Assembly: GCA_022448265.1 (NCBI GenBank)
Contig: JAKVCC010000006.1
Coordinates: 124,001 to 188,000, forward strand
Reading direction: 5' to 3'
Length of the DNA: 64,000 bases
Source of the DNA: Pirellulales bacterium
Lineage (GTDB): Bacteria > Planctomycetota > Planctomycetia > Pirellulales > Lacipirellulaceae
Below, one piece after another: positions 2,733 through 40,206 of the stretch (its first letter is position 1; each line of letters opens with the position of its first letter). Under the pieces are notes generated by a model, which worked only from the letters and a program-made list of their open reading frames with translations, was not told the origin of the DNA and ran no database searches. Position numbers and translations under genes: made by a program.

Positions 2733-3086
2733 TTAATCGGGAGGAGGAACGTTTCCCAGCTGGCCCAGTGCATCGCTCAGGCCGGGGATGCTCAGTCCGC
2801 CGGTCAGCGATTGCATATGCTGGGCATGAATTTGTTTGGCCTTGTCCTGGGCAGCATTGAATGCGGCGGGCAGCAAATCTTCCAACAACTCGCGATCTTG
2901 TTTTTCCATCAGTGTGGGGTCAATGCGGACCGCCAAGACTTCGCCCAGGCCATTTGCCTCCACCTCCACCATGCCCGCACCCGAGCTGCCCAGTACCCGT
3001 TTGGTCTTCAGTTCGGCAGACAACTCTTGCATCTTGCCGCCCATCTCCTGGGCTTGCTTCATGAGGTTTCCTAAGCCTTTTAGCAT
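2733..3086 (-). CDS. ybaB: YbaB/EbfC family nucleoid-associated protein
   Basis: 117 residues with a family-typical layout: an N-terminal helix rich in Met and Gln (LGNLMKQAQEMGGKMQEL), then the conserved core with GAGMVEVEANGLGEV and a second amphipathic helix ending in AAFNAAQDKAKQ. Members form dimers that bind DNA and influence nucleoid structure. It starts 11 bp after the dnaX stop, so the two genes are almost certainly cotranscribed. A dnaX-ybaB order is widespread in bacteria. The usual third partner, recR, is not next to it; rpoN follows instead. Confidence 0.93.
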   Translation of the reverse strand: MLKGLGNLMKQAQEMGGKMQELSAELKTKRVLGSSGAGMVEVEANGLGEVLAVRIDPTLMEKQDRELLEDLLPAAFNAAQDKAKQIHAQHMQSLTGGLSIPGLSDALGQLGNVPPPD

Positions 3087-3097
3087 GGTAGGGTCTC

Positions 3098-5008
3098 CTA
3101 GTCGTCTTGTTCAGGTGGTACGTAGCGGAGTTGTGATGGATCGCCGTCGAACATTTCTATGGCCTTTTTAACGAAAGGCTCTGCTGCCACGTCGGCCTGT
3201 TGCTGTCGACGGGACTTCGGTCGTTTTTTGGCCTGGTCGGCGGCGTCGACTCGACTGCGGACTTGCATCACTAAAGAGACTTCTGCCCCGCTAGCTTCTT
3301 GCAGGGCGCATTCCAACCGGGTTTGGTTATTAGCCCTCTGGCAATAATCGTGATGGAAAGCGTCGGCAAAACTGAGCATCACGCGACTCTGCGAATCGAT
3401 GGCGACTTCGTCGGCCTGCGAGGCATGGTCCAGAAGCATGCCCGTTAGCGAGTCGAGCGCCTGTTTCCAAACGGCTTCGATATTGTCGGTAGTCAGGGCG
3501 CCGGCGGCGCCCGGTGGCTGCGATGGAGGCTTGGGGGCCGACCGCCCAGGGCTATCCAGTGTGGCCTTGCCTGCCTCCAGGTCCTGCACCTCGGCAGGGC
3601 TGTCTCCTTTGGCAATGGCCGTTGTATCGCCAGGCGTGTCACTGCCTAAAACGGTTGCTGGTCCGGGGCTACCGGAGGATCCCGCTGGTGGCAGTTGGGC
3701 GCTCGTATCAGCGTTGCGCGGTGCGCGGATAGGAACTACAGCCGTGCGACTAGCAATCGCGTTTTTTTTTACGGTATCCGCTGTCGCGCCGGCGTCAGGG
3801 GTCTCCTGCAAGTGGCGGATCAGTGCTGCGACTTCCTCAAGATCTTCCAGGTGACACACACGCACCAGCGCCATCTCGGCCAGCGTACGGGCGTGAGAAC
3901 TTACCCGTAGCCGAGCTGATGTTTGATCGAGGATCTGCACGATTGCCAGCACGGTGGCCACGCCTAATTTTTCAGCCACTGCATGGATCTGTGCATGCTG
4001 GCCCGGCAGAGCGTACAACATCCGCGCCGGATCGCACCCGACCGCTTGGGTCATCACGTCTCGAAAATACCCGAGCAGTTGATCCAAAATCTGACTCACC
4101 TCAGCTCCTTCGTGGATCGCGGCTTCCAGCTCTTGAAGGGCCGCTGCCGCATTGCGCTCCACCAGTGGCGCCACTAATTGACTGAGTCGGGCCGCCGGGG
4201 CAATCCCGAGCATGCCCGTCACGTCCGCCGATGTGATCTTGTCGGCGCCGGTGGAAAGAAGCTGTTCCAGGAGCGATTGGCTATCGCGCATTGATCCGGC
4301 GGCGCGCATGGCAAGAATCTGCACGGCCTCGTCGTCGATCGAAACCCCTTCGCACCTGGCAATCTCGGTGAGCCGGGTTCGAATGTCGTCTGCTTCGATG
4401 CCTGCAAAATCATAACGTTGGCAGCGCGACAAGATGGTAATTGGAATCTTGTTCGGCTCGGTCGTTGCAAAAATGAATTTGACGTGTTCGGGCGGCTCCT
4501 CAAGCGTCTTGAGCAGAGCGTTGAAAGCCTCCTTCGTGAGCATGTGGACTTCGTCAATGATGTAGATCTTAAAGCGGGACCGGCTAGGACGCACGGCCAC
4601 GTTTTGCCGTAGCTGGCGGATCTCGTCGATACCCCGATTGCTGGCGCCGTCGATTTCCAGCACGTCGATGTCGTCGCCCGAGTTGATGCTCTGGCACGGT
4701 TCGCATTGATTGCAGGGCGTTGGAGAGGTGCCTTGGCCGCAGTTGAGCGCCTTGGCCAGAATGCGTGCTGCAGACGTTTTGCCGACCCCGCGGGCTCCAG
4801 TAAACAGATAGGCGTGACCCACCCGTTCGCTGGCGATGGCCCGAGTAAGGGCTTGCCAGACGTGCGTTTGGCCGATCAACTCGTCAAATGTTTGCGGCCG
4901 ATAGCGGCGGGCGACGACAACATAGTTTCCGGAAACATCATCGCCAGCGATTCGTTCGTCCGTGACTGGGTCGCCACCGGTTGGACAGGCATCATTTGGG
5001 AGGGCCAT
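3098..5008 (-). CDS. dnaX: DNA polymerase III subunit tau/gamma
   Basis: 636 residues from ATG 5008; an in-frame GTG at 5020 is the alternative start. Seen: a Walker A motif (GARGVGKTSAARILAKALNC), a zinc-binding cysteine group just after it (CNQCEPC), the Walker B/DEVH region (YIIDEVHML), sensor 1 (FIFATTEPNKIPITILSRCQRYDF), domain III, then a Pro/Ala-rich linker and a C-terminal tau domain. This is the clamp-loader ATPase. A run of nine A residues in the linker (3762-3770, about codon 413) reads in frame as V-K-K-N. One extra A or a -1 shift would lead to CGC GAT TGC TAG and stop after four codons, giving a gamma-like product of about 419 residues. The gene lies between the SRP RNA gene and ybaB. 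Confidence 0.96.
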   Translation of the reverse strand: MALPNDACPTGGDPVTDERIAGDDVSGNYVVVARRYRPQTFDELIGQTHVWQALTRAIASERVGHAYLFTGARGVGKTSAARILAKALNCGQGTSPTPCNQCEPCQSINSGDDIDVLEIDGASNRGIDEIRQLRQNVAVRPSRSRFKIYIIDEVHMLTKEAFNALLKTLEEPPEHVKFIFATTEPNKIPITILSRCQRYDFAGIEADDIRTRLTEIARCEGVSIDDEAVQILAMRAAGSMRDSQSLLEQLLSTGADKITSADVTGMLGIAPAARLSQLVAPLVERNAAAALQELEAAIHEGAEVSQILDQLLGYFRDVMTQAVGCDPARMLYALPGQHAQIHAVAEKLGVATVLAIVQILDQTSARLRVSSHARTLAEMALVRVCHLEDLEEVAALIRHLQETPDAGATADTVKKNAIASRTAVVPIRAPRNADTSAQLPPAGSSGSPGPATVLGSDTPGDTTAIAKGDSPAEVQDLEAGKATLDSPGRSAPKPPSQPPGAAGALTTDNIEAVWKQALDSLTGMLLDHASQADEVAIDSQSRVMLSFADAFHHDYCQRANNQTRLECALQEASGAEVSLVMQVRSRVDAADQAKKRPKSRRQQQADVAAEPFVKKAIEMFDGDPSQLRYVPPEQDD

Positions 5009-5071
5009 CGTGGGCAGCACCCGGGGTAGGTTGGGTCATTGCATGGGGCGAACCATTTCGACTACCAACGA

Positions 5072-5160
5072 GAGGCCCCCACACAAAGAAGCACAAGCTT
5101 ATGGCTGCAGTGTTTCCACCCTGACCAGGTTCGCAAGACTCCCATTGCAGAGGCCCCTCG
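5072..5160 (-). ncRNA. ffs: Small bacterial signal recognition particle RNA (4.5S type)
   Basis: Read on the minus strand, the conserved domain IV is plain: GCGAACCTGGTCAGG, then the GGAAAC tetraloop region, then GCAGCCATAAG. These are the Ffh-binding symmetric and asymmetric loops. The 5' GAGGGGCC and the 3' GGGGGCCTC pair to close the hairpin; the ends are set from this pairing and may be off by a few bases. The RNA forms the SRP with Ffh for cotranslational targeting. It lies about 60 bp upstream of dnaX on the same strand, an order also known from other bacteria. Confidence 0.9.
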
Positions 5161-38936: not shown

Positions 38937-39854
38937 CTAGCGTGACCGCATTTCACGGCCTGGACGTATCTCTCGCCGTACATTTTCTGAAAGTTCGCCG
39001 AAAAAAAAACGGCTTCCTTCGTATTGCTGGAGATAATCACGAACCGGGTTGAAGTAGCGAACGGCGACCGGGACGCTTGCCTCAAAGTTCCCCTGGCCAT
39101 GGATACTCAACCTTGCATTGAGCAGCGCATAGGGACGAAGTTCAAAATCAAACTCGGGGCGTACGGTGCGAAAGCGGAGGGCATATATTGCCTCGCTCTC
39201 CGCGAAATCGTCGCGATGCACGCTTTGGGTCCAGCGCTGCAACTCCTCCGATTTCAGTGGCCAACCATAACTCTTGCTGCGCTGACCCCACAATCGCAGG
39301 GAAAGGCTTCCTCGCACTGGAAGCGGTAAGCCTTGCGTGTTGAGCGCTACCACGGCCACCTCAAGTCCATCGGGTTCCACATCGCGGTCGAGATTCACCG
39401 CTTGGGCGCGAACGCGGATACTGGCAATTCGAGACGACAAGACCGGGTGTTGACTTGCTTGGCGTCCGTGGGATGCCAGGTCCTTCGTCGCATTCTGGAT
39501 GACAGGCATAGGTCTGGCAACGTATTCTTTGAAAAGCATACTGGGGCCGTCCGAAGTATGTTGTTTTAGGTCCTGCCGTAGTTCGCGTGCTTCAAACGTT
39601 TTTCCGTCGTACTTGGCCGAGCTGACGTTAGACCACAAGACCGAGGTTGCTAAGACAATATGGTCATCCGTTTTCCGTATCCAAAGCAGTCGTTGATTAC
39701 TTCGACTATCGACCTCGCCATGGAGCACCCGGCCATCGATGGTCTGTACTTCAACCGTGGTAGCGTGCAGCGGAAACGCGATTCCGCCCTGTACCAGGGT
39801 GATCAGCAGGGAAATAAATACGGGCCAAGATATGGCTGATAACAAGTTTTTCAT
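38937..39854 (-). CDS. Hypothetical exported protein
   Basis: 305 residues from ATG 39854, chosen because a clean signal peptide follows (SAISWPVFISLLITLVQGGI, cleavage near FPLHA/TT); the frame runs 53 codons further back but that part is not convincing. The start of the mature protein, VEVQTIDGRVLHGEVDSRSN, is a short SH3-like or LSm-like beta segment seen in many planctomycete exported proteins. The C-terminal two-thirds is beta-rich with no motif known to me. It converges on the pilus run. Confidence 0.6.
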   Translation of the reverse strand: MKNLLSAISWPVFISLLITLVQGGIAFPLHATTVEVQTIDGRVLHGEVDSRSNQRLLWIRKTDDHIVLATSVLWSNVSSAKYDGKTFEARELRQDLKQHTSDGPSMLFKEYVARPMPVIQNATKDLASHGRQASQHPVLSSRIASIRVRAQAVNLDRDVEPDGLEVAVVALNTQGLPLPVRGSLSLRLWGQRSKSYGWPLKSEELQRWTQSVHRDDFAESEAIYALRFRTVRPEFDFELRPYALLNARLSIHGQGNFEASVPVAVRYFNPVRDYLQQYEGSRFFFGELSENVRREIRPGREMRSR

Positions 39855-40206
39855 GGATGGCTGACGGAAGAGAGAAGGGCAGGCACCACCTTCAATTATC
39901 TTTGGCACCCACTCGACATGCCAGGAAATTCTAGGCAATCGAGGGCGTGTCTGCGAAAGACTATGGCAGATGGCGAGGTGCATGCCTGGTTTTTTCTTCC
40001 AGGGCGGTGGCAAAAGCGATCAAATGGTCAGCACCTCAGATGCTCACCTTGCACAAGCGGCACATTTAACGTGCCCTTTAAGCCGAGAGGGACCGTATTG
40101 GTTGTACGGTTTTTTCTGGCAGACTTCGTTTCCGGCGACGTGGCGGCGAAATTCAAGCAAGGTCTCAGGATCTGGCTACCTCAGAGGTGCCCACTACCCT
40201 CTCCAC

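Follow-up and report, generated by a model that had tools for sequence, protein, structure and literature searches.

The window analysed here is a 64,000-nucleotide stretch of a contig from a Pirellulales bacterium, and it carries a dnaX gene on its minus strand. The identity of this gene is clear from a search with Pfam and NCBIfam models: TIGR02397 is matched with E=4.6e-134 and 447 bits, against a cutoff of 250, and matches to PF13177, PF22608 and PF12169, corresponding to the AAA+ ATPase, the lid and domain III, place the product in the DnaX family. A bacterial small SRP RNA (Rfam RF00169, 48.1 bits) is located directly upstream, at 5066-5160 on the minus strand, and dnaX is followed downstream by ybaB (2733-3086) and then rpoN (958-2622). 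The features of the gene are as follows.

3098..5020, minus strand: dnaX, DNA polymerase III tau; 640 residues from GTG 5020, 636 residues from ATG 5008
4400..4873, minus strand: ATPase region (PF13177 match, residues 50-207)
3812..4237, minus strand: domain III (PF12169 match, residues 262-403), the last folded part common to gamma and tau
3762..3770, minus strand: A9 candidate slippery run, codons GTA AAA AAA AAC; kept in relatives
3750..3752, minus strand: TAG in the -1 (extra-A) frame; predicted gamma end, 419 residues from ATG 5008
3736..3738, minus strand: TAG in the +1 (lost-A) frame; predicted alternative gamma end, 423 residues from ATG 5008
3101..3761, minus strand: tau-only linker and C-terminal domain, not in the predicted gamma; the C-terminal domain is kept in relatives

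An initial annotation of this DNA had drawn attention to nine A residues on the coding strand of dnaX, and the run lies exactly at the position given, 3762-3770, in the sense-strand context GAT ACC GTA AAA AAA AAC GCG ATT GCT AGT. Its assignment to codons 413-416 is right if translation starts at ATG 5008; counted from GTG 5020, these are codons 417-420. The run had also been placed beyond the ATPase and domain III, in agreement with the PF12169 match, which stops at residue 403 (GTG numbering). The tau reading frame of the window's dnaX thus holds an A/T homopolymer of at least nine nucleotides past domain III, as does a site of the Thermus type. What would be made from transcripts with other numbers of A residues? 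Computed from ATG 5008, A9 yields the 636-residue tau, A10 a product of 419 residues ending VKKKRDC, A8 one of 423 residues and A11 one of 424 residues, and stops are therefore near in both non-zero frames. These products bear out two further expectations of the annotation, namely that an added A or a -1 shift would lead to a nearby TAG and a protein of about 419 residues, and that the loss of one A would also bring an early TAG.

Three known systems provide a comparison. In Thermus thermophilus, dnaX undergoes programmed transcriptional slippage on an A9 run (PMC1088944, PMC5009743), and the gene has been described with stops in both non-zero frames (PMC5009743). Like it, the window's gene has a single tau ORF, its A9 is in sense and falls in the later part of the gene, a stop is near in each non-zero frame, and the short product would be without the tau C-terminus. 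It differs in belonging to another phylum and in the position of the run, about two thirds along tau rather than about seven-eighths as in Thermus; moreover, run length (A9-A11) and phase vary within the class Planctomycetia, and slippage is here a prediction from sequence. In E. coli, dnaX is recoded by a -1 ribosomal frameshift at A_AAA_AAG, together with a Shine-Dalgarno (SD) element and a hairpin (PMC3711429, PMC5009743). The predicted end products are the same, with gamma closed by a stop in the -1 frame, but the planctomycete slip codons are without AAG, the SD element is not enriched, the hairpin is absent and +1 stops are also selected. Finally, Chlorobi and some other bacteria have a two-ORF dnaX in which tau is made by recoding (GeneTack study, PMC3711429). 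A poly-A run at the gamma/tau junction is shared with this group, where it measures 7-10; by contrast, tau is the in-frame product in the window and in almost all Planctomycetia, and two relatives (L124 and L146, considered below) share the reversed Chlorobi layout.

Is an A9 run exceptional in this genome? The window contains two, against 0.98 expected, and 28 of 100 shuffles reach that number; genome-wide there are 59 matches in 3.64 Mb, which is about chance. In a rough ORF check, approximately 10 of 28 sampled runs were sense-oriented inside likely genes. That the genome does not obviously avoid A9 speaks weakly against very efficient slippage on such runs in general. Because the count in this single genome is ordinary, the case for a function of the dnaX run rests wholly on relatives. 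The second A9 of the window, at 39001-39009, reads as T9 on the sense strand of a 358-residue ORF (38937-40013, minus strand), close to its 3' end, and no sign of function was found for it.

The dnaX genes of relatives were sampled at the level of genus, family, order, class and phylum. The order is Pirellulales and the class Planctomycetia, placed through named records: Aporhodopirellula groups with family f15, Gemmata with f23 (99% identity) and Schlesneria with f22. The class sample of 168 genes is made up of 38 from the family, 90 from the rest of the order and 40 from the rest of the class. A linker run of A9-A11 is present in 136 of them, and runs of at least nine occur at each of the three levels (30/38, 73/90 and 33/40, respectively); counted by genus, the run is found in 90 of 114. 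Two further genes from the window's own genus (L003 and L004) also have A9, but are absent from these counts, having been overlooked by the gene finder used. Elsewhere in the phylum, outside the class, the figure is 3/53. The run is kept even where gene GC reaches 73%. An alignment of related planctomycetes had been proposed as a check on the original reading, and a run unconserved in relatives as its failure; the run and its off-frame stops proved to be kept in genus, family, order and class.

In a FastTree phylogeny of DnaX itself, the class forms one clade and the run occurs in its early branches (f25, f21, f23/f24 and f22), and we take it most simply as probably ancestral to the class and repeatedly lost. 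Its presence or absence changed at least 23 times within the class, a minimum on a tree that has many weak forks and does not distinguish gain from loss. Since 32 of the 168 class genes do not have the run, the production of gamma by this route would not be universal. Runs of A9 or A10 at the same place in dnaX are also found outside Planctomycetia, in L247 (f81), L210 (f72), L330 and L334 (Phycisphaerae) and L307 (Verrucomicrobia), some of them in GC-rich genes; these either predate the class or arose independently. Two relatives from one genus, L165 and L175, have two adjacent runs in dnaX (A9 TTG A9/A10), and this pairing could raise the rate of slippage.

Has selection kept the nucleotides of the run or the lysines that they encode? 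All three codon phases are represented among the runs, the tree requires 21 or more changes of phase, and because the phase varies, so do the residues beside the run (VKKN, EKKN, QKKT, KKK). In the remainder of these genes, lysine is encoded by AAG 1461 times and by AAA 893 times; AAG is nonetheless excluded from the run. When synonymous codons were resampled with the protein fixed and per-gene codon usage, 8.3 runs were expected, compared with 133 seen. Furthermore, 26 of the 32 class genes without the run have no KK in the linker. As at a site of the Thermus type, purifying selection acts on the run at the nucleotide level. A protein-level need for Lys-Lys is rejected on the codon choice, the three phases and the fact that KK has mostly gone with the run; a chance origin is rejected on conservation, and not on the single genome.

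Off-frame stops also lie closer to the run than expected. Past the run, 100 of 136 genes have a -1 frame stop within 15 nt and 88 of 136 a +1 frame stop within 21 nt, whereas the expectations from linker positions elsewhere, matched for phase, are 13.8 and 19.9, respectively. If synonymous codons are resampled without changing the downstream protein, expectations rise to 30.3 for the -1 stop and 30.2 for the +1 stop, against 99 and 86 seen. The pattern holds with one gene per genus (64/87 for the -1 stop and 57/87 for the +1 stop, within the same distances). The site and its two stops are conserved at the nucleotide level across Planctomycetia. A 2005 survey of slippage in bacteria noted that truncating sites, such as that of Thermus dnaX, are hard to assess comparatively, new coding sequence being absent (PMC1088944). 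Enrichment of stops in both frames is a test that can be used for such sites, and it can tell polymerase slippage from ribosomal frameshifting: a -1 ribosomal shift would select the -1 stop alone, whereas a polymerase that gains or loses A residues requires the two of them, as described for Thermus (PMC5009743), and paired off-frame stops therefore favour the polymerase.

We consider the A9 run likely to be a site of programmed transcriptional slippage that gives both gamma and tau. RNA polymerase would slip on the run while transcribing dnaX, generating mRNAs with nine or some other number of A residues. Those with 9 or 9+3n would be translated into full-length tau of 636 residues. The others would reach a TAG: that of the -1 frame ends 12 nt beyond the run and that of the +1 frame 26 nt beyond it. 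The truncated products would be gamma, 419-424 residues long, with the ATPase and domain III kept and the tau-only C-terminus missing, and gamma would then join the clamp loader. The comparative data strongly suggest that Planctomycetia make two versions of a clamp-loader protein from one gene via RNA polymerase slippage. The initial annotation had proposed tau and gamma through slippage at A9, and this reading is supported, with gamma as a predicted product. We infer three things here: slippage takes place, the slipping enzyme is RNA polymerase and not the ribosome, and gamma enters the clamp loader.

Could the ribosome make gamma instead? According to this alternative, -1 frameshifting at A_AAA_AAA, of the E. 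coli dnaX type, would be responsible, with no slippage by RNA polymerase. The sequence of gamma cannot tell the mechanisms apart, because a ribosome shifting by -1 and a polymerase adding a single A lead to the same product. An in-frame A_AAA_AAA is available inside each A9 run whatever its phase, so that ribosomal slippage could contribute, and the -1 stop is both the nearer and the more strongly enriched of the two. However, seven A residues would be enough for the ribosome, yet runs of 7-8 are almost missing and 9-11 is usual. In the class the linker run measures 2-7 or 9-11, and A8 is found in 0 of 168 genes; such a threshold fits transcriptional slippage, since avoidance of A/T runs is evident from length 9 in many bacteria (PMC1088944). 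Nor is the E. coli slip codon AAG used: the heptamer A_AAA_AAG is not present, the run being uninterrupted A that holds A_AAA_AAA instead, a less shifty sequence than A_AAA_AAG in E. coli (PMC5009743). The enrichment of +1 stops also speaks against the ribosome, as do the missing stimulators. SD-like 4-mers upstream of the run show no enrichment (4/87 compared with 8.0 expected), and the sequence downstream folds less strongly than control linker positions do, for three sizes of folding window (p 0.0004 to 0.015). At the site studied here, downstream folding has z=+0.84, with no stable hairpin. Taken with the strong hairpin that a ribosomal-looking family of the same phylum has in 17/17 genes, these observations make a purely ribosomal origin of gamma unlikely.

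This family, f35 (L358-L374), belongs to another class of the phylum. In all 17 of its genes dnaX ends in frame shortly past domain III, and the tau tail, read in the -1 frame, carries on across the stop. Each gene has an in-frame C_CCN (Pro) no more than four codons before the stop, and there is no poly-A. The hairpin starts 3-10 nt after the stop, with dG from -11 to -34, and its pairs show compensated variation. Homology links the tail in the -1 frame to the C-terminal domain of planctomycetial tau (hhalign probability 98, E 2.5e-13), and the site looks like one of -1 ribosomal frameshifting that produces tau. It provides a contrast, indicating how a ribosomal signal appears in this phylum, and it supports a need for both products.

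A second alternative is that there is no recoding at all, the run being a Lys-Lys linker or a chance occurrence and tau the sole product. A single A9 is not rare in this genome and the linker is a variable, poorly conserved segment, but the run is kept against codon usage and in three phases, it is accompanied by paired off-frame stops, and its loss usually brings the loss of KK; we regard this explanation as very unlikely. The least probable explanation, scarcely credible in our view, is a contingency locus, in which DNA-level mutation of the run (phase variation) would leave some cells with dnaX out of frame: homopolymers do mutate, and two relatives have out-of-frame lengths, but tau is in frame in 134 of 136 runs, dnaX belongs to the core replication genes, and switching from cell to cell would leave the stops within a few codons in both wrong frames unexplained.

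These two relatives are L124 (A11) and L146 (A10). In both, the zero frame stops just past the run and encodes gamma, and reading into the tau tail requires A10/A13 in L124 and A8/A11 in L146. If the assemblies are right, tau would be made through slippage alone in these species; the layout then counts in favour of slippage, as it is tolerable only where slippage is real. Alternatively, the run lengths could be homopolymer errors of assembly.

Returning to RNA polymerase slippage as the preferred reading, how much of it is new? Programmed slippage in dnaX is already known, from Thermus and, reversed, from Chlorobi, and we rate the class-wide conservation as the new part. No earlier report of dnaX slippage in planctomycetes was found in the literature searched, which covers a minority of subscription papers. 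Where planctomycetes, dnaX and slippage occur together in that literature, the phylum is merely tabulated, and papers on Pirellula, Rhodopirellula and Gemmata have no mention of dnaX among the matches listed. The importance of gamma has long been disputed, even for E. coli (PMC5009743). That a normally avoided run is kept by selection across a class, even where gene GC is as high as 73%, argues that gamma is worth making. On balance, we favour the view that Planctomycetia set the ratio of gamma to tau by RNA polymerase slippage and that another lineage of the phylum makes the same two proteins by an unrelated ribosomal route, in which a -1 shift gives tau. If this is true, slippage by RNA polymerase and slippage by the ribosome would have been exchanged for a single replication gene within one phylum. 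Planctomycetia include cultured species (Gemmata, Aporhodopirellula), in which the predicted slippage can be tested directly.

Other arrangements of dnaX are encountered in the sample. Four further genes (L230, L236, L239 and L252) resemble those of f35 in their split-dnaX layout. In L237, L242, L233 and L244 (f48) and in L212 (f37), DnaX stops soon past domain III, immediately before a ybaB-like ORF; the f48 species and L212 may be without the tau C-terminal domain. L235 (f75) has a dnaX of gamma length and, approximately 10 nt later, a separate ATG-started ORF (MNTNDTLPPL...) that is perhaps a gene for the tau tail. Finally, dnaX of L240 and L241 (f28) ends TCG GGA AAA GCC TGA, in which G_GGA_AAA is a possible -1 heptamer; a proline-rich extension in the -1 frame is present in both genomes, which makes this a candidate recoding site.
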